Assembly: GCA_009760855.2 (NCBI GenBank)
Contig: WPIO01000035.1
Location: forward strand, 2,100,001 to 2,164,000
DNA from: Cristatella mucedo
Lineage: Eukaryota > Bryozoa > Phylactolaemata > Cristatellidae
Length of the DNA stretch: 64,000 nucleotides
Reading direction: 5' to 3'
This document shows, in pieces, positions 3,590 to 58,072 of the stretch. Both the position numbers and the translations under genes were made by a program. Numbering within the stretch: the stretch's first letter is position 1; every line of letters begins with the position of its first letter. The notes beneath the pieces are model-generated. The model was not told the origin of the DNA, did no database searches, and worked only from the letters and a program-made list of their open reading frames with translations.

Positions 3590-4023
3590 ATGTTACATAT
3601 GTCGGGGTCTATTATGGTGTGCCCATAGCCTGTTCAGCTATTCTGATTGGTTACATTGCAATCTACAGCTTTTATAGGAAGTCAACGAGAGCTGCTGAGA
3701 CCACAAAATTTATGGGTTTACATAATCAGGAGAGTAGTGTGCCTTCTTTTTCAGCCAACAACTATTCCTACGCGAATCAAAGGGGTAATCCAATAGTCAC
3801 TAGCAATAGCTCAAGTCTTCATTCACTGAACTTAAGTTTACACCCATCCAGTTTTGTCAATAACTCCCATCACACTATGTCTAGCAATTATAGCAAGTCA
3901 CATCAACCATCTCAAATATCAACCAACCAATCTGGTGCGACAAAGTTATCTATCAGGTCTAGCAATAACAGCAGAAGGGCATCCAGTGTTTCGTTCTCTG
4001 ATCGTATCATGTATAGCACCTAG
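3590..4023 (+). CDS. 3'-terminal exon of a single-pass membrane protein (exon A)
   Basis: The exon begins after a consensus acceptor (pyrimidine-rich tract ending TTTTAG at 3588-3589) in phase 1 and reads 143 codons to TAG at 4021-4023. Its first ~35 residues contain YYGVPIACSAILIG and a further hydrophobic stretch, forming one ~22-residue transmembrane helix ended by the stop-transfer RKS. The rest is a cytoplasmic-type tail very rich in Ser and Asn, with RRASS near the C-terminus, a match to the PKA-type R-R-x-S phosphorylation consensus. AATAAA follows 84 bases after the stop. Phase-1 boundaries before the membrane exon are usual in type I receptors built from extracellular modules. The ectodomain is not identified, so the family is unknown. 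A paralogous exon lies at 57879-58072. Confidence 0.6.
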
Positions 4024-4106
4024 CGAATAGACAGTTTGTCAAGTCTATGTTCCATGAATGTTTTCGTGTAAGGAAGCATTATTTTTTCTTTCTTCAATAG
4101 ATAGCT

Positions 4107-4112
4107 AATAAA
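4107..4112 (+). terminator. polyadenylation signal AATAAA for exon A
   Basis: Canonical hexamer 84 bases downstream of the stop codon of exon A. T-rich sequence lies just before it; no other coding feature is nearby. Confidence 0.5.
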
Positions 4113-4129
4113 GATTTACATTCGTACTA

Positions 4130-5135
4130 GTACTTGATTCAAATATATCCTAAGTTACGATCACTCTAATTGTAGCCCAATAATTGTGATACACCACAAA
4201 GATGACGATGTGTGATCTATAGAGTTCGCGTATTTCGCCTGTTATTTTCCGCTCTGGCTGCTTGAGATAAAGTCGGGTGTACACAGCATGTATATGCAAA
4301 TGGGGGATGCTGCTTAGGCTGCCAGTGGGCTATACAAACTCTTCTATGTAACACCCACCTATTTTTGTAGCTTTGCAGAGTTACAGTCGTACATGTGTTT
4401 TACAACATAGCCCTCGAAGAATGTTCATCGACGTCAAGAGTTGGCGTACTAATTATGTTTCTGTCATATTTTCAGCAAGCTGGCTGTTACCATTAACTGC
4501 ACGGGCTTGCGATCAAGATTTCCTTTTCTTTCATGCACATTTAATATGTAATTCCTATTTTTAAACATACCTAGCTTTGCAGCCAGGAGAGATTCGCCTG
4601 ATAAGAACTAGCTACATTTAAGTAAATTAGTAAATCAGTTGTGCAATGAATCTACTTTACGGACGACTAACTTGGGATCTATCCTGAAGCAGGTCAGCTT
4701 GAATTGACTCACTACTATTTGGTCTTTTTTTGGCTTTTACATCTCAAAACTGGATGCTTATAACATATTTACGCTTTCTTTGACTGTAAAAACAAAACTG
4801 TTTCGTTTGGCTACGCTTAGACTGGAGAGTCCCTTGATATTACTACTCAGCTAGTGCTTACAAACTTAGCCCTGTTCTTTACATAATTTATTGATGCCCG
4901 AGCTCTGATTGGGATACGAACTTCAGTACGAGGTCACTCGTGACCTCCTTAAATGTAGACATTGAGGTGGTCCATGGAATGGAGAGACGGGATTAAAGTG
5001 GGAAAGATGCAATCTTTGGGATGGATTATTTGTTCTTGTCAAGCTTGTTTACAAAGAAGCTATGAAGCGATCAGCTAGATATGAGCAGTTTTAGAACTAA
5101 GTAGCTAAGATTATTTGTCTTAACCATTGCAATAT
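4130..5135. other. intergenic stretch, no feature seen
   Basis: A 63-codon frame at 4373-4564 has no recognisable motif and is likely chance. Nothing else was found. Confidence 0.4.
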
Positions 5136-5139
5136 TAAG

Positions 5140-5420
5140 ATTACAACACTTCTCAGCTGTCTGCACTGGCTCCCAATAAAGTAGAGTACGACTTAATAGC
5201 TCTGCAGCAAACTTGGAACGGTCTTTTTCTCATAGTCCAGCAACTCTGACTCATCTGATGCTAAATATGGCATCTCTATTATCGCCCTGCTGGCATAATT
5301 TATTTACCTTTCACTCGAACTGACTTCAGACACCTTCGTATACTCTGACAATATTTCTTAATCTTAGAAGACTTGTGATTCGCAACAGCAACCCTTTTCA
5401 TGATGCCCTTACCTGTATTG
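5140..5420 (+). mobile_element. possible degenerate LINE C-terminal fragment
   Basis: Conceptual translation gives LSALAPNK- or LHWLPIK-like words in different frames, the latter matching the conserved LHWLPVKQRI segment of LINE-A at 12390. About 200 bases downstream is a weak R-rich segment where a LINE C-terminus would be. Frames are badly broken and the assignment is tentative. Confidence 0.2.
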
Positions 5421-5965
5421 TGAATCAAGAAACTATCCGGTTACTTGTAACATTTGATGTAAATTGTTCTGCTCTGGAATGCAAACTTAGGATTGGTGTG
5501 CATTATTTCTGCCTCTAGCACCTCTTTTGGGCACCCAATTTCTAATCCCAGAATCCCTAGCACTAAGTTTTTTATTAAATGAACTCAACTGCACATGTTT
5601 CCAGTAACGTCAATTGCTCATTTCATGCTTCGTCTAGATATTTTAAAGACAAATCGGAAATCCGAGCAATCAATCAACCAATCTAGAATGACCCAGTTAT
5701 TTGGAAAGTTCCTCTATAACGGCAGAGAGGCATCCAGTGTATGGTCTTTATGCATATAAAAGGCATCAGCTAGCTAACATTGAGTTCTTAGAGTACATCC
5801 TACTTAAGGATATTGGTCTGAGGAAACATGTTTCCCATTCTTTACAAATACCAAAATTGTTTCTGAAGTTACCCATTATTTCATTCAAATACACCATCAA
5901 TTTCATGACTCCAAAATGTGTTTGAAATTACTAAAGTAAACTGAAACTAAGATAACTTATCGTTT

Positions 5966-12939: not shown

Positions 12940-15900
12940 ACATTCATATTCAAACATGCAAGGCTCATGAAGATGCTGTTCAGCTTGAATTTTGGGTAAT
13001 ATCTAGAGTTTTTGTAGAGGTTTGAAGCCCAAATTATTACTAGTGAATAGGCTGTGCCTCTCTTTTGAATAAATTAGTACAAAGCAGGGTCTATCTTTAA
13101 TAAGTTGATGAGTGCAGTCAGTTCTCGTGTTTCCTCCCTTCAGTATATTTCATTGAACTTACTGATATTACCAAGCCAATGGTTTCATTTGTAAGCATCA
13201 ACTTCTGAACACAAACTTTAAGAATATCAACTCCATAACATATAAATACCTAAATTAGAATTTCACTGTATAGCCTAATTACAAGTGCAAATTTAGTTTA
13301 GGGTAAAACCATGGACATCAACTTCGCCCGCTTATGCACACTTGCTGCTGCCAAGGGCAGTGTCTTTCCAGCAAAGAATAAAATACTAGATTACAACGAG
13401 CGTAGTATAGATAGTTTAGTATACAAGTAAGCCCTGTACTGTTTTCCTAAATCTAGGTTGATAATAAAACGTACATTAGAAATCTGCTATCAAAGATGCT
13501 TGTCTTTTCCAAAGCACTTAGCTTATGCTGTAGAGGACGCATCATCGTATGACTAGTTTTAGCATGCTCAATGCCAACACGTGTAACATGATTAGAGGCC
13601 ACATGCACGTTCAGCTTACACGTGTGGTTTACCGCAGCACGCAAAGCCTCAGCAGGATAAACCACACTAAGGACGAATCACGTGAACCGGCTAAATTCTG
13701 AAGTAAATGCATTCCTTTTAGCTTTTTTAATTTTTATCTTTGAACCGCAAACCGAACTTGCCATAGTGAATTAAAACAAGCCACAGATCACTATTTGTTA
13801 TGTATAATTGGATAATAACAACACATTACAGACAACTGATTTGATGCAAACTAGTAGTATTAGTTAAAGAGAGCATGCAGATTTATCGACCATGATCTTA
13901 AAGGTGGAAGTACTAATTTAGTTAACATGCTTTAATTTATTTCTAAAGCTGAAAAATATGCACTATTGTCCATTATCATGTTAATTCCTAATAGAGTTCT
14001 AGTTGAATGCTGCCTAAGTAAAGCTATCGATGATACTTACACAAAAGAATTCATATTTCAACCACTCGTTAGCCTTTAATAAACTTGTTTGGTAAATTAA
14101 AGGTGTAATTGCATAAGTAAAAAATTGAAGTACACTATTTTAAACATAAACGTTAGAAAAATATATGCAAATTTGTTTTAAGATTATCCAGTGATAACCT
14201 TAAGAAAAATCCTCTATGATGACAACTAGTTGCTGTTTTAATGCATATTACTACGTTTATCCTTTCAAGATTCAATCACAATATCGTGGCACTTAAGTAA
14301 ACAATGAAACCACCTTGAGAAGTTGCACTCAGTAGAACTTTCTGACCAAAACAATCTAACCGTTCTTGCTGGGAAATTAAAATTCAGTCTTCCTATGGGT
14401 AATCACCAATAATATCGAAAAGCAACTAAAAATATGAAATCAGCATCAACTGTTGGATCTAATAACATAAGTGTCTGTTGATGGAGCATGCAAAAAGGTC
14501 AGTTGAAAGCAACTCGATCACTTGCAACTTAATCAGGCGATCATCTCTTGGATTCATTTTGTGATACATACATAATGATTTGCCTCATAATGCTTTATTT
14601 GTATCTAGGCAGTCATTAATACGGAATTTAAGATTACGAAAAGAATTATTATTTCTGTGGTGCTCCTATACTACCGTAACTATAGCTGTTATTCAATTTA
14701 GGTTTATGGTCGGCTATTTAAAAGCAAATTATATTCCAAATGTACTGTAAGGGTCATTTCCTCGTTATTTCAAATTTTTAAGTAACATTGTAACACATGT
14801 AAAAAATGTTTTGGGACTTTATTTTAAGCAACATTGCGAGTTAGTTGCAGCATTTAAGAAGCTATTCAAGTCCAGTGAAATCTTCTTTGGTTTTTTAAAC
14901 TCGCTGAGCGTGTTACCTCGGTGTTACTTTTGCTACTAAGTAATACAGATTGTATGTTTATTTTGAATTTCATTAGAAACCTCTCAGCCTAGTATGGAGT
15001 TGCCTTCTATTTTGTTATTTTTTTACATTACTACTTATATGGGTATCTTGTAAGAACCGTGTACAATTACTTGGAAGACAAACTCTTTGCTATCACCACA
15101 AGAAATATCAAGAACAGCTTTGCTGCAGTGATGTGTCAGCACTATAGATGGGAGCTTTCAGCACGAAAGCATTTTTGAAAGAACTAATTTTGCAGCATAT
15201 ATTTCCTCACTTTTTCTAAAATAGCTGGTCACATTTGCCCAATGGTAAACACCATTCAAAATAGACAGTTGCATCTTTGACCTATTGCATTTACCCAGCA
15301 AATTATGTGGCTGTCTGGCAGTCAAGGATGCTTTTCTTCTTTTGAATATTACAGCCCTTTAGTCTCTCTTCGAAGGCGGATATTGACGGTCTAAATATTA
15401 TTTAGCAGTTATAGCATATCGTTTACACGTGAGCTAGAATAGTTTCTCTCAACTAGGTTCTTCTGATCGTCTTTAACGATTCTTGTACAGCTTTCTGTGT
15501 TATTAGAACCAACTTTAATTCAGCTTATTAAAGTTATTTGTGTACCTACTTCAAAATATAGCACAGACGTTTACCGATTCCATCATGATTTCTCTCAAAT
15601 TTAAATGCAAAAATCTGACAAGGCCTTTCCAATTTGATAGCTTACCATTGCTGAATTCGCTCCAAGTCTTGCTGTAATAACTCTTCTGACTCAAGAAAGT
15701 GAGTTGGCTCAAATCTTGATGAATGAAAGCTTCTGTAATTCACTGAAAATGTAAACTGTATTACATGAAATATTCCGCTTTAAGTGTATTGGTGTAAAAT
15801 TTCTTCTCAGGTGCTGGGAATTTATGTGCAAGAGAAGCAATCAAGAAAAGTAGATTGGATAGGTAGGCTGCAGTGAGCGAGTGTATCGACCTAAAATTCA

Positions 15901-38126: not shown

Positions 38127-38162
<36 letters not shown>

Positions 38163-40370: not shown

Positions 40371-40377
40371 TCGGGTC

Positions 40378-40469
40378 CACTATAAACAAAAAAAAAGTCG
40401 AAATCCTAACTGGATTAATTATCTGTGCACTATAAACAAAAAAAATTAAAAGATCTAGCTGATTAATTA
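40378..40469. repeat. ~50-base tandem duplication, two units
   Basis: CACTATAAACAAAAAAA starts at 40378 and again at 40428, and CTGGATTAATTA (about 40410) recurs as CTGATTAATTA (about 40459). The middle parts have diverged, so the duplication is not recent. Confidence 0.7.
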
Positions 40470-41120
40470 GCCTATGGCCAATTATAGGGACAGAAGGAGC
40501 CTTTATGGCTATGCCACCTTACAGTGGCCATAGAGGATCATATTACACAGAATCAGCGACTGAATAGGGTCAGCTAAATCAACCACACAATTGATACCAT
40601 CTACAAATCATACTCATTTATGTTGACAAGGTGAATGATAAATTTTAAGAACAATTTTACAAGCGAAATGACACTGATAAGTCGACTTGTGAAAAATAAG
40701 ACGGTCAATATTACAACCTCTTCATAGATCTTGGGACAATACAACCATCAGAAAGTGCCAAGATGACTGTCTCGGGCGTAGTTCAATGCCGATCTTCCAC
40801 CACTCTTCTTTGTTCTCTGGAAGGGTGGTACCACAGCCTTTACGTTTGATAAATGACACAACAAATCATTCTCTACTCTTTCACACTGAACTGCATAATT
40901 CAGGTATTGATTGGCTACCAATCAGTGTAGTGCGGTTAATATACCGGTGGTAAACTGTGTTGTATGTTTTGCATGAACCCAATGATCACAAGAAGCCAGC
41001 ATTACAAATATTGCTGAAACCAAACCATGAGTGTGACATCGATGTTTTTCTGATTATTAGTCGCCAGAATTTGCCAGTCAGCGCCAGAACGCAATCTCTT
41101 CTAGCGCTTTGTTACAAGCA
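40470..41120. other. stretch without supported feature
   Basis: No family motif seen; the frame at 40957-41145 runs into the LINE-A fragment that follows. Confidence 0.3.
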
Positions 41121-41124
41121 ATGG

Positions 41125-41610
41125 AAATTACATTGTTTCAGGTAATATCATGCTTGATAAACAAACAACAAGAATATATGGTTGGGGTGGCATGCCAGAG
41201 GTCAGCTAATACAATGTGAATGATGGCAGCTTGCACAGTGTCAGCACATCAAGCACAAAGAACAATCACGGGGTTCCCACTAAATGCAAATCAATGGGTG
41301 TGTTTCTTTTAAATGTGGTCAGGATGTTCTGATGCAACCAGACAGGGGTTCCGGCAGGAATTATCTGAACTTAATTTAAGATCCCCAAAGGATTTGAGGT
41401 TCAATGGTAAACAGTTACATTCATGGGTGATGATAGTAGCCTGGTCGAGGCTCAGATCGATGGTAGGCGAGACGTAAAATAGAAGTCACCTAAAAGTGAG
41501 CGACACAACCTTGAGTCAATCGTTATGACTGGGAACCAGTGCTGGGTCAGTGGTGCGATGTGGACTATTGCCAATTGATTTTTAGCATTACGTTGCTTAT
41601 CTCATAGATA
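41125..41610 (-). mobile_element. LINE-A 3' UTR and C-terminal domain
   Basis: Inverted LINE-A from a hairpin-less 3' UTR (CATGCTTGATAAACAAACAA, GGTCAGC) up into coding. On the minus strand it reads SFGDLKLSSDN and, nearer 41560, a decayed LHWFPVITID. Much of the terminal hairpin is gone. Confidence 0.7.
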
Positions 41611-43245
41611 AAGTACCGTTTTTTGTCACGACGGGGCAGCTCGGTTTCGTGCCCTGGTAAATGCGGGATACTACCGTTATGTTACTTCTACATATGCGGG
41701 CAAACCACAGTTGCACGCTAAAAAGGGTGTGTCGAATGTCTTGTATTTCTCCAAACCTACTCTACTATGCAGGCAGAATAATTTTAAACATTAAATACCG
41801 TGTTTTGCGTGCTGCTGGTGACCCTCCTGATTGAATATCAGCAACTTGTGTTTTATTTTAGGGCTGATCGCCTCAAGTAATATGGGTTTGTTTGTCAACG
41901 ATTGATCGCGTGGTTCATTAAGTCAGTATATTTAATATAGGTCAACAACACTATGTGAATAATTGTCACACTATAATGTCTGAGAACATTTCATTCCTGA
42001 ATTCAATACTTGCTAATTGCAGCATTTAGCGATGGCCCAACTGGTAATTTCCCTGCGGTTTATTGTTATATGGAAGATACCTATAAGTCGGTATTTTGAA
42101 TGTGTGTACTTTCTTCGGTTTTGTAAGGGTTTACAGATAAGTGGTTTCTTGGGGGATTATTATATAGCTGTTATCTAAGCCATATAGAGCTAAATTTTGA
42201 GTTTAATAGACATAACTAGAGATATTTCATAGCCTGAACACAAGACTGAATGTCAGTTGCTTACAAGTGATACATGATGGTAGTTCGTGAAAAGATTCAA
42301 TGCTGTTTGCCCACCCGCAGGTACTAAAGCAGCATTACGATTGGCTGAGACCAACGGCCCCAAACCAAAATCAAAACGATGACCTTATGGTTAAACCCAC
42401 GTCTCCATCTTGAATGTAAACCTAGACTGGTGTTAGTATAATAGCAGCCCTCAGATCAGGCTAAGGATGGAAAGCAATGAAAATCTGAGGATATGCTAAA
42501 TTCTTTCACCCTATGTGCTGAGTGCATTTTAAAAGTCAGACGATGTGTCTCTGTGTCAATTTAAGCAGCATGGCAACTTCCTGAGGTTTCAATAATGTTG
42601 TGCTACAGTAATTATCCATTTATTTGATATTGATTAAGCGATGTATGCATTATTGAGCAGTGCCTTGTGGCGAGAAAGGTATGTCATGCACTCGGCAACA
42701 TGCCACCGTGTCGAGTCCTCTCCACTGTAAAACACTTTTCTACATATCAGTACTCAGTTTAATTGTTCATCTATGCTAGTCAAGCGATCGCAGCAATTCA
42801 GATAAGACACATCTTTTATTTCACCATTCAGAATTCAACACAGTTCATCAATTCATTTTGGTGCTCCACAGTCAGGCTTTTCATTAAACCGCCGGATATT
42901 TTTAACTCAACATGTAACTATTTCACCAGCCAAACTCAGATCTGTGAAGAGTCCTTCAGTTTAATTATCCTTGTTTTCACCAAATCTTTGCAGACTAATT
43001 CATAATCCCACTGAATGAGAATATGGATTTTCCAAAACTCCCCTGCTCATCACAAGTAGACTATCAATTGAACTTAGTCTTCAGTAGGTTTATACATGCA
43101 CGATACACGCGCATCTTAATTAACCGATTGACAGCACTTCTTTCCATTCTAAATGGGTTGGGAAAGATATTTTATTTTCTATAACACTAAGAACCTTGAC
43201 GTGTGTGTATTATAAATCAAATTAAACATCATTCTCGTACATTGG
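41611..43245. other. stretch without supported feature
   Basis: An 80-codon frame at 42763-43005 has no recognisable motif; no repeat match. Confidence 0.35.
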
Positions 43246-43249
43246 TATA

Positions 43250-43625
43250 TGCTTGATTGCTTTCATAGGCAAACTCTTTGCCAAGAAACAAGTATGACAA
43301 AAGCTTTGTCTGCAGCATGTCCTAGACTTTTGCAACTCTTGAAACTCAGTGCTGCACATAACGGCATCTCTCTTCTACACTCCGACTGTGGCTCCAATCT
43401 TACCTCTGGTGGTCCTGGGCTGCTGTGCTCACTGGCTCAGCTCTCTCTGACTCTGCTATGGCACCACTTTCTCTTTGTTGTTGAGGCAAGAGTCGCCTTA
43501 TTCTGTGTGTAAAAACACTTGGGCTGAGTATACAAAACTCTCTGCATGTGACATAATCTTATGACTTTATTGAAGGATTCCTGAACAGGAAGTACGTTAC
43601 AGTAAATTTCTAGTAAAGTAATGCA
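43250..43625 (+). mobile_element. LINE-B 3' end fragment, diverged
   Basis: The order of C-terminal segment (CCTAGACTTTTGCAACTCTTG), CACTTTCTCTTTGTTGTTG and a terminal ACGTTACAGTAAA matches 55230-55510. Divergence is high. The 87-codon frame inside is not a separate gene. Confidence 0.45.
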
Positions 43626-43793
43626 CCATCCTCTATAAAGTTGCAGGACTTATACAATACGATATCATCTCTCATGATATCAAAAGGCGTAACTCACTTT
43701 ACAAGGTCATCTAACCAGCCTTCATGGTGGGAGGAGGTATTTTTCTTTAGCATTCAATTGTTTGCACATCATAAATAATAATGCTCCTGTGCT

Positions 43794-43816
43794 CTATATA
43801 TATATATATATATATA
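43794..43816. repeat. (TA)n microsatellite
   Basis: Uninterrupted TA tract of ~23 bases. Confidence 0.95.
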
Positions 43817-43819
43817 ACT

Positions 43820-45095
43820 ATTCAATGGCAACATTCCATGTGAGCTCTTACCATTCAATGAACTCAACTGACAATAAAACAGACTCACTCCAGTTTGTCT
43901 GTATAAAATTACCTGGATGAAAGTTTGGATTTTAATGGCCCCATAAATCTTTTTAAGGCAATTGCTCAGTTTTTAGCTTTGGGATACTGTATTCGGAATC
44001 CCGGTAGCATTGCGAACTGTTTGTATCAGGAGTAAATTTCTCAAAACCACCAAAGCCCATTCAACTGTCTTGATGACTCTTGTCCCAGTCACTGCTATTT
44101 CAAGCGAAGCATTATTGTGTACAGAGGCCACAGAGTTCCCGATGTTATACTTTAACCATAAACTATGCACGCAATATACAAATGTAATACATTTTTCAAC
44201 TTAGAGGAACTTTGCATCGTCTCGGGCATGGTGTATGGCATGCATTGATTGTTGTAATTCAACCTACTTCTTTTTTTTTAGCCAAATACATCAAACGGAC
44301 GAATAACACAGTCACAAATAAAAATAGGTTATTGCTTATGGCAGAGTGCTCTATCAATTATGTTAATGACAGCAATAGATGTGCAATATACAAATGACGC
44401 TTTATTAAAGCAAGCCTCCACAAATATTTCAGTCAGTACTATATTAAAAAGGTTCATTAGTTAGATTACTCAGATGGCCATTAGCAGATGTTCAGAAGCC
44501 ATTGGGTTGCTCAACCTGAGTCCATGTTTTTATGAGTATTGATGACTTCTATCAACTGTACATTTCACAGTCATTTTTAGCTTTGAAAACTTTAGTGTTG
44601 AGAATCCTTCAAGCATTACCCTAGATATACCGCATATTCAGAAAGGAGCCTGTAATATCATTGATATAACTTTGGTAGGGATTTGGGTTCACTGAACATC
44701 CTCTTCCTTTGATCTTTCAGTAAACAACCTATTCCCATATCCAGGAGTCCCGATGATATCACTATTTCATTCAAGCAAATCAGTACTCGAAATGCTTGAA
44801 TCTTGCCAAAATTAACTAAGCGGCGAAACAGACGTTGTTATCCTTTGAAATCGACCAGATCGGATCAATACCTATTTATCTCAGGTGGATAATATCGGAA
44901 TTCAACTTATAGAACTTTAATGCTCCTCCAAGGATAGTACTATGTGTGGAGACAAAATTGCAAGCTCCATTGGTGTTTTAGTTCTCATCTAAAACAAGCT
45001 GTCCTGTGACTTGTAAAACAGCCAAGATTGTAGACAAAAGATTTCAGCTAGGGCATATGAAGCAAACTAGGCTGTGGAAATCAACACTAAAATGA
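43820..45095. other. stretch without supported feature
   Basis: Short opposing frames at 43973-44204 lack motifs. Confidence 0.35.
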
Positions 45096-45099
45096 TAAT

Positions 45100-45175
45100 T
45101 TTCCAATAAGCGCTCTGTAGAGAACTCAATCTCTTTCCAGACAGTTCACACATTCTGCAAACGAAGCGCTTAGTG
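45100..45175 (-). mobile_element. LINE-A 3' terminal hairpin fragment
   Basis: AAGCGCTCTGTAGAGAACTC, then AATCTCTTTCCAGACAGTTC, then TTCTGCAAACG is the inverted, diverged LINE-A end. It lies ~60 bases from a + strand LINE-A piece. Confidence 0.6.
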
Positions 45176-45229
45176 AATGGTTATCTTTTACGATCATCTT
45201 CAACAAAAATAGTGACGTCCGCGGATCCA

Positions 45230-45640
45230 CCACACAACCACCCTTCTCTGAAACACCTTTAACCAGTCAAGCAGCATCGATTTCAAAGTCATCTACTCAC
45301 TTTAGGTCGCCCTTCATTCTTTTTGCCTTGGCTATCTATCAGATTCCCCATGATAAGCTTCATCGGTGCCTTTCAGAATCCATCATTGTCCTCTAACTCA
45401 ACTGAAATCTCAATCCCTATGGAGACCATGCGTATAGTTCATCTGCTTCAAAAAACCTGAAACTCCCCCTAACATCTGCAAACATGCACATCTACTAAGA
45501 AACTAAAGTACTTTCATTAATTACAGCATTAAAAGTGGGACAATACATTTGTCCTTATTTACTTATGCTTGCTGACAATGTGCATGCACTAACATCATGA
45601 AAGCTGATACAGGCATGCTAATAAATTATTCTTTTGTTTA
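45230..45640 (+). mobile_element. LINE-A C-terminal and 3' UTR fragment
   Basis: Follows 12360-12800: the ISKSSTHFRSPFILF-like LSLTFRSL segment, LNSYGDHAYSSSA- and PKTWN-like decayed text, then CAGCATTAAAAGTGGGACAA, CTTGCTGACAATGTGCATGC and the start of the 3' UTR. No terminal hairpin. Many frameshifts. Confidence 0.65.
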
Positions 45641-45644
45641 AATG

Positions 45645-47635
45645 AGCCTTTTCTAATTCGCCCATCGTTCGATACTTCTTTGATCTATCTTTAGCGGAGA
45701 CACAATAGTTGAGCTCTTAGGGTTCGCATCTGTTTCCATCCCCATTTAGCTCATACATCTTGGTATGAGCGAATGAGATAGGCTAATCCAATAAAAAATG
45801 TGTATTTTAGAAAAAGCAAGAAGTAGGAGAAAAAATTGTGTAAAAGGCGATGAGTATGTTGTTAAGATGCTAGTAACACAAGAAGCTCTGAGTTAATACA
45901 AGAACATACTAAACCTCTAGTCCAACAAAAATTTTGAGCTTACATGCCTAGGACCTTTCAAAAATACCAAACATGAAAATGGAATCGGTGCTGACGATTT
46001 CCACCATGAATAAAAGGTTGCTACCGTCATGTACTTACAAGGTTAACCGGAAAACACAGTTACAAATTAGCAACCACTTTTTATAACTGGTGGCTTTGAT
46101 GCTGTTACTATAGTGGTCTTAGGAGCCCCTGAAATGACTTAGCCCCAGCCAACCTGCCTGTAACTGAATCTCTTGAACGCCCGTCCTGAGATCCATTTCT
46201 GGATCAGCTTAAGGAGTATTTCTGCTATATAAGCAATGTGCCCTCAAGGTTGCTCAGATTTTCTGCAAAGTATAGCTCACCTGGGCATCGCAATAACCCT
46301 CTCCTTTTAGTCCATTAGAGTTGATACAACCACTGCAGATCTTTGCTGTGCTGTTCCTATCGAAAGCAATCCAATTAGTCTTGGGATTCAGCTATATATA
46401 TACGATATGTGGTTTGCGCGTGTGCGCGCTCGCGTGCACGTGCGTGTGTGTGTGTGCGTGTGTGTGTGTGTGTGTTGTGTGTGTGTGTGTATTGTGTGGA
46501 AGCCGACTTCGCCTTCTGATTATTCATCCAATTCAACTTATATTCTTGATTTTAAATTGCAATTGCTTTCATTAAATATGATCAACCCATTTACTGCAAA
46601 AATATCAGAGGCAATTTTAAAAGCAGAATGTGAGAACATTGATGTCGTTACCAATGCTTAATGAGTCACAAATGCATCATAACATCGATATTCTCAGGAG
46701 CACCTACCTGCTCTCTCTGTTGAATAGTAGCTAGTTTGATTTCGCACTCAGATTCATTCAACAAATTGCTAGCGAAGAACCTGTAGATGTAAATGATTTT
46801 GAAATTAATCTCTCTCTAACAGTAAGGCAACACATAAAGCTCTACATGTCTTGATCCCTACCTCAATGGTAAACGACAGTTTTTGAAATGTCAAATCAGA
46901 ACGCTGTACCTACAACAATTATTTATAACCCCCTCAAATAGTTTCTTGCATATTTTATGTCGATTAATCGAGATGTTTGCAAGTTAGTAGTTGTAATATT
47001 CATATTGTTTAATTGGATTGTTAACTTTGGCTGCTTGATAAACTTGGCTGAACAGTGAAATTTAGTGAAACATGTTATATATAATTCTGTTTTATTTAAA
47101 AATGTTAACAAATAAGGATATTTCTGAATAATCTAGACATGTAATATGGACTTCAGGTCTGGCGCGTGCTGCGACAGCGGCTCTCTGAGGTTACGAGGTA
47201 GCTGAGTATGGGTGCTACAGGACCTGTTTCTATGAGGTTTGAACGATCAGAGCTCGTGCGAAGAAGCAGCCATGGAATGTTCGCTAGTAAAAAATGCGGA
47301 AGCAGTTCTACAATCAATACAGCATCATCCCATAACAGCGCCCAGGCGCCATCATAGTTCAATGTGCTGCTACAATATTGAACAACTTGGCTGGCCATTT
47401 AACCTGTATTCGGCTCAACTTTACAAAAGAAATCCAGCATCGAAGGTAACCAGTATTATATTAAAAGTAAATCGTATCTCGTTGTATCTCATATTCATTA
47501 AATGCAAGTAGTGCTTTATAGTTTTCTAGACCCCAGGTTCAGAAATGTGAGGTGCTTAGTCTAAGATGTGGTACTCGGTAGCCTGCCAGCCAAGGCTGCA
47601 TTATCGCTTCTGGCTTTACAATGGTAATATACTTC
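45645..47635. other. stretch without supported gene
   Basis: Includes the GT microsatellite at 46416-46495. Overlapping open frames on both strands at 47153-47511 (81 and 90 codons) are somewhat GC-rich but show no family motif. Confidence 0.3.
46416..46495. repeat. (GT)n microsatellite with GC interruptions
   Basis: GT-rich tract with GCGCGCTCGC near its start and one TTG interruption; preceded by a short TATATA. Confidence 0.95.
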
Positions 47636-47639
47636 CCGT

Positions 47640-47810
47640 ATTGCACCCTCAGAGAACGTTTTCTCTTTCTGGGCATAATAACTGCAGCATAGAAACCCCA
47701 CGGCCGAACGATTAGTGGTGGCATGCTCAACGAAAACAGAAACGCTTGTTAGGGGTAACTGCACAGGGTCAGCAGGCATATACAGCCTGACTATTAAAGT
47801 CATGTGTGAA
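47640..47810 (-). mobile_element. LINE-A 3' end, diverged
   Basis: CCCTCAGAGAACG, TCTCTTTCTGGGC, GTTAGGGGTAACTGCACAGG and GTCAGCAGGCAT follow the inverted LINE-A 3' UTR of 34740-34880. The hairpin arm pairing is lost. Confidence 0.7.
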
Positions 47811-47848
47811 TGATATGTGTGATGTTGTTTTTGCAAACAAATACCAAT

Positions 47849-47874
47849 GTGTGTGTGTGTGTGTGTGTGTGTGT
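47849..47874. repeat. (GT)n microsatellite
   Basis: Uninterrupted GT tract of 26 bases beside the LINE-A fragment. Confidence 0.95.
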
Positions 47875-47879
47875 CTACT

Positions 47880-50755
47880 GTACTTTAGATCATATTTCAG
47901 GAAAACCTTTGTTTTTCCATAAAATAGTTGTCGTGCAGCCTTGGTCATGCTTAAAAGCCTAAAAACCCATAGCCTAGACTTTGGTTGCCAAAGTGATTCA
48001 GTTCAGTTAACCAAAACTAAATTGAACACTCTCATTTCTACGATAAATTGTCTTTTTACCATAGGAGGCAAATATTCTGCTTCTTCCACTAACTACAGGC
48101 TTCTTCCTTTAATATTTACTTGAAGAAGTATTTCTTACAACTGCAACTTAGTCTCATTGTAACAACAGAAGTTTAGCCACAACATTTGCCAAACGAGTAC
48201 TTTCTTCCAGCCAACTCCACGTTCCTTAAACACGTTTCGATTGTATTGCATTAGCTCCATGGCGGCCTATTTTCAGTAACCTAACACATTGAAAAGAGTT
48301 TGTCGTGAATAAACAAAGAAGACTCTCAAATTATTCCTTTCATGAGGTAGCGTCGATAATTATGCTTCTCTTCTCTCTGTTTATTTTTATACTCGAAGTT
48401 ACAGTCACTGATCATGCAAAAGGGCTAATAAACCCTTAAGTTTGAACAGCGAATGCAGAGTAAACTTTTAACACTGGCTAAAGGAGTGTCGCGGTTTGGC
48501 TTCTTCTTACCTAGCTTGTTCGTTACGCAGTGCAAGCCAGCGGCCTTTGGGTCCGTGAACTGCAGTGCCATAACGAAGGGTTGGGCATACGTCTGATGCT
48601 TGGTCAGGAGAGATCACCAACATGGGCGTCTAATACTGGAAAACATTTGCATCTAAACTAGCGAAGATGTTGTAGGCAGCAGGGTGCTCAAGGAGAAGCA
48701 ATATGATGGAAGACCTCGAGTGTAGCTGCAGCACCTTCTGCAGGCTTTTGCTGGCTGTCGGTGTCACTCCCGCTGTGGCCTTGTGTAAATCATTAGGGCA
48801 ACCTAAGGAAGGTATTAAAGCAGGTTAGGAATGGAGGCAGTGAAAAACCTGCAGGACATGGCTACTCGGAAGCTCATAATGCCTTCTCTGTGAGGCCCAC
48901 TTTGCTGTTCATTTTACCACAATCACACTCACTCTCTGACAGAGCCTTTCAGTGTTAACTCACACAAAGGCTATCAGATCAGACCTACCACCTTTACTGT
49001 GGTTTCCAATGTTCGGCAGTGTAACAAACCAATGCAGCCTTTAGGTTTGTTGGCTAAAATCTTTCACTATTTGTTGTGTGTGCATGTGTTGCTTCTCGGC
49101 CACTGGTGTGCTGTGCCCCGCTCGATGGTGGGGGCGATTGGCTCGTTTCAGCGCTTTGATGGGCAAGTGTTTTGTGGTTGGCCAGGGTGCAGCCTTCAAT
49201 ACAGGCAGGTGTTTTGGCAGTTGGCTCAGTGATGGGCTTGTGGCCCTGGCAGTGGCTCACCACGGATGCACTCCCTTATGGTGAGTCCAGTCCCTAACTA
49301 TATATGTACCAACTGAAATAAAAGATGATCTCGTTCACCACTCACGTTCGCCGCTCGTGTCTTCGTGTCCATGGACTCCACTAGCGCTGCTGCAACCAGA
49401 GAAACAGTAACCCAGCATATTTACCATCGTCTGTGCCTGGTATATTGAGCTATCGTTCAGATGCTCATATATGTGGTTTTTGCTAAAGGAGGACGTTAGT
49501 TTGTAATCAGCAAGCGACGACCGACCCAAGTTGCCGGGCGGCCGAACCCTCGCTCTGCTTGGGTCCCTGCACGGGTATTCCCGGCATTTGAATCACCGCC
49601 CTACAGGAAATCTCCCCTTAAGCACTGCTGGTAATCGCTCTAGCTTAGTAGTTGCCAAACATACCATAACCTAGGCCGGCAATTCTTGTGATTCTCGTTC
49701 AATGTTACATAGCCTTAAAATCTGACGTGATAACAGAAGGACATTGACCTGATCCACTTGCTCTAAGATCTGGCTAATCTCTTACCCGCCCGACTACAAC
49801 CAACACCGCTTTCATTATATCATACTGTGCACCTAGGGAATCAAAACCGGTGATGGTGTACCATCGTGCCATTTCTCCCTAGCAAACCGTTTGCAGTCCC
49901 CTGAATCAGTCCGTTGATCTGAGTCATCTGTCAGCAACTACCAATATTCTGTTTTGAAATCTCTTTACAAATTCCCCTAGGAAAAAAGTCCTCGCCATCT
50001 GCAGATTTCTCTACTATTCTTGTTTAGGAAACCGAATTTTTCTTGATAGTGTTTCGCCGTTTAGTCAGCTAGCTTAGCTGACACCTAAGCATCAAAAGTT
50101 CAAGCACTATTTGGCTCATTTTCTCTTGTGTGCCCCATGCTCATGACCCTACTTATGTCAAAGTCAGAAGCTCTCAAAACAACTGCGATGTTATTCTTGA
50201 AGCTGCTCTGTATGGTGCTTACCATATAATTGTGCTCACTTTACAGCAATTTAGGTTCTTTGAAAGTGACATAGACTATGAAGTCGCTCTTGATTATATT
50301 AATATTATTATTAACCTGAATTTATTCATATATTTTTTATAGAACGTATCGTCTAAAATTTTACTCAACCTGTCTGAACTAATGGTTACATTGTCAGTAG
50401 TCTCATCTGTTTGTTGATTGATTGTAGCTAGTAGGATATTACATTGCCTATTTCATCTAAACACTTGCTGCTTAGGTTGTGTCAATTCACGCCCGACAAT
50501 GGCTTTGTCAGATTGTCCATTATGCTGATAATCTTCGCATTACATATGATCGTGCCTTATCGTATTTTAATTGCATTGCTAGATGTAATTGTTGTTGCTA
50601 AGGTCCGTAAATTATGCAACAGCAAACGTTCCCAAAGCCCAGGCTGAGGCTGGGGGCAGAGGAACCCATTCTTTGATATTCATCTTCTGGAACCGCTCAT
50701 CACGTTCTCCTCCAGCCTGCCCGTGAGTCTGCATACCATAGTGGTCGGGTCCTGC
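47880..50755. other. stretch without identified gene; higher-GC part at 48.5-49.6 kb
   Basis: From ~48480 to 49620 base composition is less AT-rich, with several overlapping short frames on both strands (for example 48999-49284) and AATAAA at about 49318, but no family motif. An old element or gene remnant is possible but unproven. 49700-50755 is AT-rich and featureless. Confidence 0.25.
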
Positions 50756-50756
50756 T

Positions 50757-50840
50757 ACCAATAAAAATAACGCACTTTATAAAAGCGCCCTCGGAGAATC
50801 TCTTTCTGGGCGCTTTACATTTCTAAGGGAAACGAGGTGA
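50757..50840 (-). mobile_element. LINE-A 3' end only (~84 bases)
   Basis: Terminal hairpin with perfect stem AAAGCGCC (50782-50789) and GGCGCTTT (50809-50816), loop TCGGAGAATCTCTTTCTG. One of the shortest insertions; the tail has decayed to AATAAAAATAA. Confidence 0.82.
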
Positions 50841-50844
50841 ATGG

Positions 50845-52635
50845 TGGTAATATCGCGGAGTAACATATTCTGCTGGCGGCTTAGCTCTTGTCTTTGCTCA
50901 AGGGTGCTCTACGTGCAGCAAACCCTTCTTCATTAGGACCATTCTATTAAAAAGGCTTTGACCACTGAGTCACCTCGATCGATACACAACCTGTCAGCGC
51001 CCCAACCATTAACCATTCCGAGCCCACAGGCCTCGATGTTTTTTTACCTTCATCTATAGAAAAACTATGAAGGATTGTCAATAGCACACAAACTTCAAAC
51101 CGATTGCAGTGCTCTCACAGAGATCTTTCGAATATATTGTTTTAAAACAACAGCGCTAGATAATGGCAATGATATATTCTTACCCCTGCAATTAGAGTCT
51201 ACCTTTAACTCAGATTTTCTCGATCGATTCAATGGGAGAGGAAATTGATCTTTCCTCGTGGCAGATCAGCGTTGAGCGTTGTTTTTAACTCTAACGTCTC
51301 TCCAGCACTCAAATTTGTGCCTGACGCTGATTCATCGTCTATCACTTTTGGCCTATGGCTGCATGGTCCTCATTATATAATGTATAAAGAGATTGACAAA
51401 AGTGTACAGCTGCTTGGCTCAATGAAGATCAATCAATGAATTCTGAGCGCTAAAGCCATGCGGCCTCGGTTGGCACACATATTAGGCTCAAATTGTATAG
51501 TTTAATTGGTATTCACCTAAACAATTTTCTCAGCAAACAAATCAAGGTTCCCAGGATCTAAATAAAGAATTTAGAGAAGCAGTGGCTGACCTTGAATCCT
51601 TGAAGCAATAGCTTATCAAAACTTTAAGATTTTAGTGAAAATATTAGGAAAATGTCCAAAAAATAAATACTTGCAGCTTAAGAATTGACAAAAGAGAGAA
51701 AAGAATAGAGACGCTCAAGGACGTCCATAGAGCACATAGTTGAGGTTGAACTTAAAGCCGGGAACAAATTATTTATGCCTGTCTTGCTCGACCATCATCT
51801 TTCACCAAGAGAAATTGGCGTGATTTTTTATAATAAGACCTGAAATAAAATAATGTAGTTCTAAATAATGAAACCACTTTCTAAAGCGAATAACAATACC
51901 TTTGATGCACAATTTCAGGTTGTGACGACACCAAAGTAAATAGCGAAGATAATGTAGAAATTGGAAAAGAATGCAAAAAACTGCTGCGCGAACACCAGTC
52001 AATTAATAAATAAAATAAACAATAGTTAAAGTTATTTTCAACATTCTATTGTCATAAATGGAGATAGATTTATGGCCAAATTCAAGCATTTTCTCTGAAG
52101 ATAATTCTTTAGACGGTTTTTGAAGTATCAATGACTAGCTTTGTGAAATGCAAATTTATACGCTTTCATTTTATATTACTGTGTGCAAAGGCAAGACCGT
52201 TTTGAGTTTGAGCTTCTCGGCATTAAAAGCCGACATTTTTAGAATGTTAAGTTAACCTCAAAACCAAATTTGGCAGGGTGAAGTAAAAAAGAATAACATC
52301 TATAGCTTTCGAAACTCTAATAGACACTCTTATTTTCTCATGAAATATCTCAATGACAATGTCACTCTATTAAATATTAGCATAAAATTAATTGCCATAC
52401 TTACACCCTATTAAAGTTTTACTTAGAATTTGTAAATATAAAAATGAAAATGGGTAATAAAACTTAATATATCTGAAAATTATGGATTCAAAAGGGTTAA
52501 CAGTACTTAGCTGCAAGGCTCCAAATATCCTAGGCTTATACAGTGGACAATCTCTAACTGTTCTATTTCCTACACTTCAATTGTGTGTTGCTTTCATCCT
52601 CCCAGGCTTCCGACTCCAATTATGTCAACTTCCCT
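50845..52635. other. AT-rich stretch, no feature seen
   Basis: Frames at 51245-51439 and 51802-52002 show no family motif. Confidence 0.4.
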
Positions 52636-52639
52636 GCCC

Positions 52640-53345
52640 AGTATGTATTGATGACATCCACATGGATATTAGCAAGTACAATTAAGCCAATGATAAAACC
52701 AACTTACCTGTTGTAAAAATCCGTGTGATTCAGAAGTGGAAAGAGCTAACCCTCAAAATTGACTCTGCCAGCATATCTCCTGTTGAATCTGCACGAAATC
52801 TAGGTGTCTTTTGATCTTTTGAAGTGATCTTTTGTTAGACGACCGCATCAGCTCCTCCAAGTCTGGCAGCTGCATAACATTGCTAGAGTGTTGGGCTGGG
52901 ATTGTAGACAAGGATGCCACGTGTCGATAGGTCCATCCATTTGTGACATCCACTGACTGTATCCTGCTAGCCTACCGGCTTGTGCAATCAGGTGCTTACA
53001 GCTGGTGCAAAACTCTGCAGCTAGGCTTGTCTGTCGAGCATCGCAGGTTGCCACATCACCACTTTTCGACAACCTAAGGCTACCAATCAGCAAGATCGCT
53101 TCAATTTTTATTACTCACTTTTGGGTCACTTCATTATTTCACACTCAACCTATCTCAGATCTTCTCCCCCACCAGACAAGCATTATACCATCACCGGATC
53201 CAACAGTTTTACTAATATTACAAAAACCACTTAGTGCGTTGATCCCAAAGCCTGGAGACTATATCCTGGCGTTCAAAGCCCATGACTGACAAACATTTAA
53301 AAGAACTTAAAACCCTGTTTGAACAGCATTTAGTGGATCTGTTGT
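52640..53345 (+). mobile_element. LINE-A copy, RT end to C-terminus
   Basis: Starts at the CIDDIHMDI segment just after the palm motif. It then follows SASISPVESARNLGVF, the LDDRISS segment, LQLVQNSAARLVCRA (open piece 53005-53289) and the decayed PKPGDYILA. It ends in TTTAGTGGATCTG of the 3' UTR without the hairpin. Confidence 0.75.
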
Positions 53346-53349
53346 GTTG

Positions 53350-54980
53350 TGACTTGAGCTTCTTAACCACTTCTTCTTTGTGGCTTTATTGATTTTCAGA
53401 TGGAGATACATTTATTTGAGGCAGAGTCGTCATTGTGTGGCACATTGGGTATGTGTCTTAGTTGCCACAGGATCTAATTAAATGCTGCATTGAATTATGG
53501 TTTCTAAGATTCACTCATTGGTCAATTCATTCTCTTTCTCTCTCCTTCCTTATTTCTCTTACTACGTAATCCTCTGTTTTTAGTTTATGCAAATGAACAA
53601 TCATAGCTCGAAATAGTTTAACTGTGTTTTAATAACCGGGAAATATGTGTGGTGTGGTCTTGGCTCACCAAACGCCTTTGACTATGTAACTTACCTTATT
53701 ATTCTCTACTGTGATGTGACATCTAAGGTTTGAAGGAATCTAAATGTTGCTTAAGTACTATTTTTCCCATTCGGATTGAGCAGTCGTTGTTCTGCAAGCT
53801 AATCTATAAATCTGTTATTGCTGGCTTTTCATTTACTTTTCTTGATTATTTGTAAGGCGTAAAATGGTCAGTTCTTTAGTGTAGTAACATTGAAAATATT
53901 TTTACTTAATTCAAATTGGACTTTTTTACGTGTGATACGTCTAAACTTTATTAATTAATTTTATGTTCATGAAATCTGCAAAAGCAGCAGTTTCTTCGAA
54001 CTCGGATACAAACTTGAAAATTAGTCATTACTTTGATAAGTAATGAAACTAGTTTTAATTGATAGAAGAGTTCTTGCAGCAAACAGTAATATCTTGGGAG
54101 AAGTTGAAAAACACAAGACATATGAACCCAAAAACTAGTCAACTGAAATCTTTGGGTCATTTGAAATAGCGTTCTATTTTTATTCGTTTGGTAAACAATA
54201 CAATAAGTGCAGAACTAACTGAAACTGATTTAACTCTTAAGCATTCTGCCGTATAAATTGTTTTAATTTGTTTCTATTGCAGGCATTCCGAAGGTCAAGA
54301 TTTTAAATCGCCAAACATCAGACAGTAAACATTCTTTAATATTAATGTGCATCATCTGATTTCTTTAAAGACTTAATAACCGTCATTTGGTACGTGAATG
54401 GTAATGAATCCTCATATTAATAACCACGTGAATTTCAAGTTCAAGAGCTTGATATCGGACTGTGCTCGCAAGTGAATAACTGTATTCTTCAAGCCGTTGA
54501 TTATGAGATTGCGGACGGAAGAGTGGATCTGGATTCCTTTATGACGCTAAGTCAGATGTTCTTAAGCTTTATGGAGGCATTTTACTAAAGAAGGTAGCTT
54601 AGAGCTGAGGCGTTTGATTCTCGTTAGAGCTTACGAAGCCTTTAAGCCGTGCTAACATTTCTCTGTAATTGAATTGACAGCTGCAGTGTTCATTTGAAAT
54701 TATTTCCAGCTCTACAAAAATATCTATATTTTATTTAAAATAAATACTAAAACTATGATTTGGAGCATCTTTCTCTGTCGTTTGCAAATTTCAGGTTATT
54801 TTTTACTTTTGCGACCGCATTTCCATCTCTTCAAGAGGTCCGATCCCTATCCAAGATTGAAGCTGTCTCCCTACAGGGCTTATGCTTAACTAGCTCTTTA
54901 GTTCTCGGCCGGTGTGTAATTCTCGGGCTACCAAGAAAGCTATAATGCCACTACAGCGGACTATGAATATGGCTGAGGCT
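53350..54980. other. AT-rich stretch, no feature seen
   Basis: Frames at 53951-54160 (minus) and 54760-54945 (plus) lack motifs; a CAGG acceptor-like site near 54286 leads to no long frame. Confidence 0.35.
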
Positions 54981-54984
54981 GGTC

Positions 54985-55065
54985 TTCAAGTCCAGCGGTT
55001 TAAGCACGTGTCACCTTTGCTGAGAGCTAGGATGGTTGCCGGTTGAGCAAGGATACGGAGCAAAG
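54985..55065 (+). mobile_element. degenerate SINE head
   Basis: CAAGTCCAGCGGTTTAAGCAC matches the A-box region of the SINE at 18730, followed by GCTGAGAGCTAGG and GGTTGCCGGTTGAGCAAGG as a weak B box. No tail is seen; LINE-B sequence begins ~20 bases on. Confidence 0.4.
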
Positions 55066-55084
55066 TTCTTACGCTAAGGCCGCC

Positions 55085-55515
55085 ACGGCTTGGCTCCTTC
55101 ACCTAGCGAACTGCCGTGGTTCAGCCTGTTCCACGCACCCTCGGTCCTGTGTGGACAAATTAGCTGTCCCATTCCTCTTCTAGAACAGTTGGCGACAGAA
55201 GCGCTCTGCAGGTCCTAGGCTGTGGAACTCTTCCACAATTCTTACGCAACTACATCTATCTCAACTGCCGACTATGGCACATCTTTCAGCGATTCTGTAC
55301 TGCTACTTCTGTGCTATTAACTACCTCAAATGCTCTCCTAACTTGTGCTACGATTCCACTTTCTCTTTGTTGTGTGGGGTAAGTCTGTTGGTACCGAATG
55401 CGTTGCCAGTACGCTTAGGCTGTGGAGGTGGGCTTTGAATTCTCCTGCGTACACCACATGGTCTTTTATGACTTTGTGGGTTACTGACAGAATCATTACA
55501 TTACATTAGGTCTGG
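55085..55515 (+). mobile_element. LINE-B 3' end fragment
   Basis: The C-terminus translates as RSAGPRLWNSSTILTQLHL (a decayed GPRLWNSLP...LRN). The 3' UTR is shared with 30640-31015 and ends GAATCATTACATTACATTAG at ~55494-55512, the clearest LINE-B terminus in the window. No open frame remains. Confidence 0.7.
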
Positions 55516-55904
55516 TCTTTTTATATCCGCTACTTGCAAGTTAGCAATCATCTGACAAAGCCTAAGAAATTCAAGAATTTTCGAACATCAAAGACAAATT
55601 GTCTTTGAAAAGTTACAGCGTCGATTAGAGTGTGATCGTCAATAGCTCTTGAGGTCTTGGATCTCAAACATGTGCTCACATAGCGCACCAGAACCAGAGT
55701 AAGTGATTGCGGTCCTGTAGCAGGTCGGAAAGTGGTTCCTAAAGCATTGTAAGGGAGCAGACTTCTAGCCTCCTCCGCTTTGGCCGTTGTGCAAAACGGA
55801 GCTTTGGCGACTTGGTTGACACTATTTGTCTTTGGTCATACTTGCGTTACCTCCAGCAGCGCAGAACGATGTAGTCTGGGCAGACCGCACTTCCACCATG
55901 TACC

Positions 55905-55995
55905 GCCATTAATAATAATACGTTAATTAATTTTGAGGCTACGCCCTGAGAGGAGCTCCAGCGATTTCTCAGGGCACTTTAAGTTTGCCTGTCCA
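55905..55995 (-). mobile_element. LINE-A-like 3' hairpin, divergent subfamily
   Basis: TAATAATAATA, then a perfect 9-base stem GCCCTGAGA (55943-55951) with TCTCAGGGC (55967-55975), then ACTTTAAGTTTGC. The layout is that of an inverted LINE-A end, but stem and loop sequences differ from the other copies. Confidence 0.5.
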
Positions 55996-55999
55996 AGAA

Positions 56000-57540
56000 A
56001 TCACATGATCGAATGCATTGTCGAGCTGCTCCCAGATGCGCAAGTATAGTATGGTTTACTGGTGACAGGCAGAGGGGTTACGCATATACAGTGAGCGTCA
56101 CCCGCATGCAGTTGCTACGGCACTAATTCAAGTCCTTTGTGTTTCGAAAATAAAATATGTTTAATAAATCGTGCATAAGCGCTGAACTCAGGCGTGCGAG
56201 ATGCCTTTGGTTTAGGATAATTGTTTTGCACATTCTTGGTATATGAACAAGCTCACCAGCCTGGTACTACTTCATTTGTGAATGCTATCAGGCAACCTGA
56301 GCTCAGCCTAATGATATGCATCTATGTACTGCTTAGTGGAGTTCTCTGGTCTGTTAGTACATTGACATTGATAGCTAGAGAGATGATGCTGCGACACACA
56401 TTGCAGCATGAATGCTTCTGTGTTTTATTAATCTGTCTTCTGTAGATTAATTAATGTAGGATTATATGGCTTGATTTTGTATTTAGTTCGAGTCATAATG
56501 TACTTTTTTGCGTTGAATCACTGTAAGATGACGCGGGCAGCCTAATACAGCTGACTAAGTATTCTCATTCAGGTGTGTCAGCAGTGTTGCAACATGCTTA
56601 GTTAACAAAGGAATTACTGGACTCTTAAGAACTTGGATTAACTATAGCAGTGTGTTACTCTTTCAGATCGGAGCTGGTGTAGTGATTTCTACAGCATTCC
56701 CGTTAAGTTAAATTATCGGCTAGCTCTACTTGGTTGACTCTTGCTTCTGATCCTGTAGTTCTTCACGGATTGAACTACGCCATCTTGCTGATCGACGGTT
56801 CATCTTGCCATGATTCAGTTTCCTGTCTTGTGGCGTGACGGTTTTTATCTTTGTGTGAGATATTTAAATGCGAAAAATGTTTGTTTCAAAATATGATTTT
56901 GCTTTTATATTCTAGCCCTTGGTTGAAACGAAAAATGGGAATATGACTAACTGGAGAAATATCGTAAAATTCAGGAGTTAATCACTCCTTGTGCCGAAAG
57001 AAAAATTCTCGGCTCTCATTCCAACCTAATTTGGCCTCCGGTTCTTCAGCATTTTCAAAAAATAATATTAAGCCATCATAATATCTCTAGCAGAACTTAT
57101 TCGCTTCTGCTAATAAATATTACACAACAAATAATTCATCTTGGCCGTTAATCGGTGCTTTGTACTGAAAAAATTACATTTAATATTTACAAACCACATG
57201 CAGGCAGTTAGCCACATTATCATCAAAAGCATGAAAACGGGAAGTTAATTTGAGCAATATCCTGCTGCGTACATCGGCAGAATCCTGCAAGCAAAATATG
57301 TTTCGAAGTCAGTACGTACTACACTTAAGACTTACAAGATTAAATACAAATATATTAAGAAATCAAAATAAAATTAGCAACTGTCAGACTAAGAGAATTA
57401 TAAAAATAGCAATAACGAAACAAACTGAATGTTATCGGTTGTTAGCACGTATTTTCAACATCTAATCTAGCAGTCGAATTATTTGCTCGAAATTATGATT
57501 GTTTCAGCGCCCAAAAGTGAAATCTCTATTCGGAATCCTG
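56000..57540. other. AT-rich stretch, no feature seen
   Basis: Frames at 56221-56445 and 57250-57465 have no recognised motif. Confidence 0.35.
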
Positions 57541-57544
57541 CTTG

Positions 57545-57625
57545 TATTCAGGGCTCGAAGGACCACGACCTTAGCCCGTTCTGTGGAAGCACTTTAACCA
57601 TTAGGCTTGGAAGGCAACCTTTAAA
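57545..57625 (-). mobile_element. tRNA-derived SINE head
   Basis: The minus strand reads AAGCCTAATGGTTAAAGTGC, then GTGGTCCTTCGAGCCCTGAA, an A-box-like and a B-box-like block ~35 bases apart. The tail is not visible at lower coordinates, so it is truncated. Confidence 0.5.
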
Positions 57626-57878
57626 CAATGTTGCGATTGCCTACTCTTTTTTCTAGTATATATGTTGGTGCATTAATGGCAGCATAAACCAGGTGAGCGT
57701 AAAGACAAATAACTTATATATTGTTTTGGTTGATCATCGAAGGTAAAACATGATTTTTTCAAAGTTCTAATTGCTCATCTGCAAGGTCTTCAACGGTACT
57801 AGACTATTGAGACCCTTCTCGTTATAGACTCACAAGATAGCTATTGACATAAAGACTATTCTGTTTGTATATTTTTAG

Positions 57879-58072
57879 AAATCATTCGCATGGGGTCATT
57901 TTATGGAGTTCCGATTGGATTTTTGCTTCTCATTGCCTGTGTAATCCTATGTAGAAGTGCCAGAAAGACGCCTCTGGGTGAACAATCAAGATATCAGAAG
58001 TTCGAAGTAGCACTTCCCGGAAAGATCTCTGTAACCACATCAGCCAATCTCTGGCTCACTAGGACCACATAG
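57879..58072 (+). CDS. 3'-terminal exon of a single-pass membrane protein (exon B)
   Basis: Begins after a pyrimidine-rich acceptor (GTATATTTTTAG, AG at 57877-57878) in phase 1 and encodes 63 residues to TAG at 58070-58072. The start contains IIRMGSFYGVPIGFLLLIAC, giving a ~20-residue transmembrane helix ended by CRSARK. A short tail with two basic patches follows. YGVPI falls eight residues after the split codon, exactly as in exon A (3590-4023), and phase, acceptor and layout agree. The two are probably paralogous last exons, although the tails differ in length and composition. No canonical AATAAA is seen close downstream. Upstream exons were not identified in the window. Confidence 0.5.

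Follow-up and report, generated by a model that had tools for sequence, protein, structure and literature searches.

In some invertebrates, clusters of fast-changing membrane receptors are the seat of self or parasite recognition. The parts of PMC11067881 that describe the Hydractinia Alr region report single-pass membrane genes of the immunoglobulin (Ig) superfamily clustered in one region together with likely pseudogenes. For the snail Biomphalaria glabrata, the sections of PMC4361660 and PMC7494358 on GRC and PTC2 describe the former as a cluster of single-pass genes with large, β-strand-rich outer parts, mostly containing fibronectin III domains, and the latter as single-pass transmembrane genes without known domains. 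Here, we analyse a 64,000-nucleotide stretch of contig C288 (C288:2100001–2164000, hereafter the window) within a genome of 572 Mb, and two of its exons, A and B, which an earlier note made from the letters alone had assigned to a cluster of paralogous single-pass membrane proteins. We find that A and B are very probably the last exons of neighbouring genes (genes A and B) in a tandem family, and that the short tail read for exon B is an artefact of an error-rich stretch. The C288 locus is therefore a place to test receptor-based recognition, and it illustrates how an unpolished stretch of assembly can fake a 'diverged short tail' and conceal a gene. Seven-digit positions below are those of C288 and shorter ones, unless prefixed by a contig, those of the window.

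Terminal and outer-domain exons on C288

Exon A has every feature that had been read in it: an AG acceptor, the best-scoring of its candidates, in phase 1; YGVPI from residue 8 past the split codon; a hydrophobic helix (best 19-residue hydropathy 1.87); a basic stop-transfer; a tail with RRASS; and a stop. Used as a genome query, it gave seven matches among 12 candidates, all on the + strand of C288 between 1542443 and 2103592 (0.56 Mb). The six matches other than exon A itself are 43–54% identical to it (E 9.8e-36 to 1.6e-22) and all their frames are open, which makes exon A a coding member of an exon family, beyond chance. An AG giving phase 1 lies upstream of all seven (in the exon denoted L007, a second AG gives a different phase). 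The suggested search for further phase-1 YGVPI exons thus yielded six homologues in that phase but none with the strict motif, which is confined to exon A; the others read YGVPA, VGIPI or VGIPS. RRASS followed by [VI]SFS occurs in four of the seven. The ratio of non-synonymous to synonymous substitution rates (dN/dS) between exon A and the six others is 0.42–0.59, and it exceeds 1 in one of 21 terminal-exon pairs, formed by two near-identical copies. Along C288:1542443–2043385, two kinds of terminal exon are interspersed (1542443, 1804193 and 2042960; 1590185, 1702027 and 1924338), with members of the same kind closely alike (proportion of non-synonymous differences 0.04–0.09).

When the open frames from 2043.4 kb up to exon A were set against those that precede the terminal exon at 2042960, two types of long exon emerged: T1 (roughly 123 residues) and T2 (roughly 104 residues). 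The other exons attributed to gene A all lie before the window starts, and their order, T1-T2-T1-T2-T1, pairs with that of the neighbour gene ending at 2042960, in which an additional T1 and a final T2 are present; the five module pairs have dN/dS of 0.20–0.83. In six genes the last T2 starts 2.5–3.7 kb upstream of the terminal exon. Across the genome, T1 gave 31 matches (26 on C288, one each on C254, C111 and C376, and two on C299) and T2 gave 29 (22 on C288, one each on C254 and C111, three on C299 and two on C376), all those on C288 being on the + strand; these counts are lower bounds, as the profile-found T1 exons at 2002617 and 2068040 are not among the 31 listed. The matches elsewhere fall at C111:1411358–1415241, C299:1856024–1944695 and C376:438597–550399, and none of these three sites gave a terminal exon when the genome was searched with exon A.

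In the chosen splice model, every T1 and T2 exon begins and ends in phase 1. Both chosen sites are top-scoring in three of the seven T1 exons (2002617, 2019347 and 2023989) and two of the five T2 exons (2070519 and 2081207); in the rest, at least one site was picked by alignment to relatives. The T2 donors are top-scoring in all five, and the donor chosen for the T1 exon at 2089097 is outside the best three listed.

T1 is modelled as a β-sandwich, with no convincing Pfam family. The T2 search of the PDB returned 247 sequences with E up to 1, and 58 of the best 60, many of them the same IgG Fc, are named as an Ig or antibody chain (best E 0.0013). The Pfam C1-set matched three of four T2 members (best E 0.0018), one member scoring under the curated cut-off (14.8 versus 21 bits), and Cys22, Trp37 and Cys80 are invariant in all four. 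These matches assign T2 as an Ig C1-like domain and, with a reservation on the curated cut-off, place it in the Ig superfamily. A V-like exon at 1998755 had sub-threshold Pfam matches, to DUF7498 (E 0.011) and ig (E 0.14), and no PDB match under E 0.44; a second, at 1954344, lacks a good phase-1 acceptor. Perhaps a V-like domain stands in front in some family members.

The proposed cluster of paralogous single-pass membrane proteins is thus borne out by the seven terminal exons and by the clustering of T1 and T2 on C288. Sequence and profiles together show the anatomy of a clustered single-pass receptor family: tandem homologous genes with outer modules, a membrane helix and a tail. Real decay is also present in this cluster, because a T2 exon bearing stops sits in clean sequence of the window (Table 1).

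Gene B and its kinship with exon A

Exon B (57879–58072) comprises the first 194 bases of the gene B terminal exon. Its acceptor (the best-scoring AG, phase 1) and its YGVPI, from residue 8 past the split codon, are as the earlier note had them, and its hydrophobic helix has a best 19-residue hydropathy of 2.37. As a genome query, the window exon B found one other place, C254:48442 (66% identity, E 1e-14), where the frame is open over 186 amino acids, on a contig of 83,898 bases. In this copy the terminal exon (C254:48442–48951) is open for 170 residues from the acceptor and has a Ser-rich tail ending in RRTSRVRF (tail end NRRTSRVRFADMTS), the counterpart of RRASSVSF in exon A; we take RRASS and RRTSR to be sites of the basophilic-kinase type. 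Neither the stop that the window has at 58070 nor its short basic tail is present in the C254 copy. The claim that the tails differ sharply, B being short and basic, and that signalling has diverged accordingly rests on frameshifts in an error-rich stretch, and falls with the long, Ser-rich tail on C254.

On C254, profiles made from the exons of gene A and its neighbour recover the T1 frame (E 8.9e-29) and the T2 frame (E 1.5e-27) that precede B. The interval between A and B, taken by the earlier note to hold the other exons of gene B, does so in its last 11 kb only (T1 at about 47.1–47.5 kb and T2 at about 54.3–54.6 kb); the rest of the interval, over which four profiles were run and other exon kinds were not sought, gave one decayed T2 (14.2–14.5 kb).

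In the letters of the window, the resemblance between A and B is marginal: a local score of 38 is reached by 6 of 2,000 composition shuffles and 37 of 2,000 segment shuffles, and the terminal-exon family profile scores exon B below zero bits. These values would suit unrelated exons in which YGVPI precedes a helix by chance or convergence. However, the C254 version of B scores 97 against A, a value that none of 300 shuffles (38.3 ± 6.5) reaches, and B is preceded by T1 and T2 exons that match those of the family, which makes a lack of kinship extremely improbable. The scores of C254 B against two further terminal exons, L005 and L007, are likewise reached by none of 300 shuffles. As a genome query, C254 B gave nine matches among 40 candidates, strong at C254 and the window only. 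Common descent of A and B is therefore upheld, with terminal-exon homology to B clear for A and weak for some other members, and with the T1 and T2 exons carrying the case at the level of sequence. Identical phase and register, the grounds on which descent had been argued, are indeed found in both exons, but shared phase 1 alone is weak evidence, because the chosen T1 and T2 splice sites are also phase 1 and this phase is usual for extracellular modules.

An error-rich stretch of the assembly

To the left of a junction at 37802, window positions 32222–37802 differ from C254:21501–27076 by one mismatch and 11 gap openings in 5,586 columns. To its right, the alignment with C254 contains 786 mismatches and 436 gap openings in 7,680 columns and then 1,682 and 1,335 in 25,882, with collinearity reaching 68904 in window numbering, beyond the window end. 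Identity here is 78–83%, with 0.55–0.79 gap openings per mismatch, as against 0.01–0.09 in 17 of the 19 other repeat pairs listed; in the two outlying pairs (0.20 and 0.37) the C288 side lies at 72.4–73.3 kb. We also measured gap openings per mismatch against repeats in C288:1940001–2100000. The ratio is 0.062 (234 pairs) for window positions 1–37800 and 0.246 (54 pairs) for 37803–64000, versus 0.062 (151 pairs) for the C254 version of the latter and 0.063 (73 pairs) for C254:21501–27076. Past the window, it is 0.153 in C288:2164001–2168900 (three pairs only), 0.238 in 2168901–2176000 (40 pairs) and 0.071 in 2176001–2204000 (193 pairs; 0.117 with only the best pair per place). As the ratios are high for the C288 side and not for C254, the noise sits in C288, and we infer that the stretch resembles raw long reads left unpolished. 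Readings of open reading frames, repeats and motifs are unsafe throughout it, including a degenerate TTTAGGG-like array at 58997–59344.

Alternatively, the B locus in the window could be a true decayed second haplotype or duplicate, the working copy being on C254. C254 and the window are two records of one locus, and broken T1, T2 and terminal exons would suit a pseudogene. This is improbable: the switch from 99.7% to 78–83% identity is sharp at one base, the excess of gap openings recurs against unrelated repeat copies and on the window side only, and gaps are as frequent in the gene B exons (0.052, 0.037 and 0.054 per column) as in the whole block (0.051).

Several observations nevertheless weigh against placing A and B in one family with noise as the cause of the short tail. 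Mismatches, as distinct from gaps, are fewer in the T2 exon (0.034 versus 0.038–0.050 in the flanks) and the terminal exon (0.031 versus 0.047–0.069) than beside them, as in a copy once selected, with no reduction in T1 (0.068 versus 0.046–0.073); some true second-haplotype or allelic divergence beneath the noise is possible. The scores of C254 B against L002, L003, L004 and L006 are reached by 15, 81, 5 and 10 of 300 shuffles, the terminal-exon profile finds C254 B at E 0.0011 (a one-sequence search with strong composition bias), and exon A is weak (E 2.1) in the genome search with C254 B. For gene A no last T2 was found; the place expected for it is partly N (2095001–2100000). Between 1542443 and 1590185 neither T1 nor T2 gave a match, so the gene ending at 1590185 is perhaps short or divergent.

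Table 1 Positions of exons, signals and assembly features (window numbering unless C288 is given)
Feature	Position	Strand	Remarks
Exon A, terminal exon of gene A	3590..4023	+	Transmembrane helix, basic stop-transfer, Ser/Asn-rich tail with RRASSVSFS, stop
AATAAA polyadenylation-like signal, gene A	4107..4112	+	Read in sequence
Decayed T2 pseudo-exon	14218..14478	+	In-frame stops; clean part of window; profile E 2.4e-15
Junction	37802..37803	.	Left side matches C254 at 99.7%; right side same locus, error-rich; about 260 C254 bases skipped
Error-rich, unpolished long-read-like stretch	37803..64000	.	Continues past window; end placed by the repeat ratios somewhere within about 2173–2183 kb of C288
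Gene B T1 exon place	47059..47508	+	Indel-broken; 20 gap openings versus open frame C254:37126-37605
Gene B T2 exon place	54267..54634	+	Indel-broken; 12 gap openings versus open frame C254:44690-45079
Gene B terminal exon, full extent	57879..58366	+	Aligned to C254:48442-48951 (stop codon excluded); 28 gap openings
Gene A T1 exons	C288 2068040, 2077872, 2089097	+	Open-frame comparison and profile
Gene A T2 exons	C288 2070519, 2081207	+	Open-frame comparison and profile
T1 exons of neighbour gene (ending 2042960)	C288 2002617, 2019347, 2023989, 2036472	+	Open-frame comparison and profile
T2 exons of neighbour gene (ending 2042960)	C288 2009930, 2032151, 2039921	+	Open-frame comparison and profile

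The window also holds pieces of a long interspersed nuclear element (LINE)-type element, apparently a single one, at 11448–12020, 12089–12643 and 19712–20119. The first matches RVT_1 (E 2e-19); the other two are mutually similar and matched no Pfam family. A perfect ATAC array of 28 copies occupies 16879–16990.

Possible function and comparison with known systems

On the evidence of sequence and profiles, the outer part of these proteins is built of repeated one-domain exons, T1 and T2, and the last exon supplies the single membrane helix and a tail that is rich in Ser and carries a putative kinase-type site. By analogy with clustered receptors elsewhere, the outer domains may recognize a ligand, self or foreign, on another cell, and phosphorylation of the tail may relay the signal, while gene number would grow by tandem duplication. 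An immune or self-recognition role can be inferred on the same grounds. That the family mediates adhesion between cells, during development or in the nervous system, rather than recognition of self or parasites, is a possible though somewhat doubtful alternative: adhesion is common for invertebrate membrane proteins with Ig domains, and nothing here ties the locus to immunity, but recent tandem duplication, decayed copies and rapid last-exon change (dN/dS near 0.5) would be more usual in recognition families. We tentatively suggest that the locus might be an undescribed invertebrate recognition complex, with at least eight tandem receptor genes in which T1 alternates with T2, quick duplication and decay, and more T1 and T2 on three further contigs. 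If so, it would parallel Hydractinia Alr and snail GRC/PTC as a third independent case.

Mitochondrial sequence bears on the identity of the animal. A cox1 piece is stop-free only with AGA/AGG as sense codons; AGA/AGG stands at Ser in three of five positions and ATA at Met in seven of eight, so that, in this small sample, mitochondrial code 5 fits better than codes 2, 4, 9 and 13. Code 5 is used by protostomes and also by lancelets. Partial cox1 matches off the mitochondrial contig C688 occur on C83, C166, C549, C299, C442 and C155, several with TAA/TAG stops, and are possibly nuclear copies.

Of the systems known to us, Hydractinia Alr and snail GRC and PTC2 come nearest in layout. The C288 locus resembles Hydractinia Alr1/Alr2 and their relatives, as far as the cited parts of that account extend, in its clustered single-pass Ig-type genes and decayed copies, a likeness of layout only; the mitochondrial code of its animal does not fit cnidarians, to which Hydractinia belongs. 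Likeness to the Ig superfamily C1-set is confined to T2, T1 having no convincing family. With snail GRC and PTC2, as the cited sections portray them, the locus shares a single-pass cluster, and PTC2 lacks known domains as T1 does here, again by layout only. In contrast to GRC, whose genes mostly have fibronectin III domains in those sections, the C288 genes carry the Ig-like T2.

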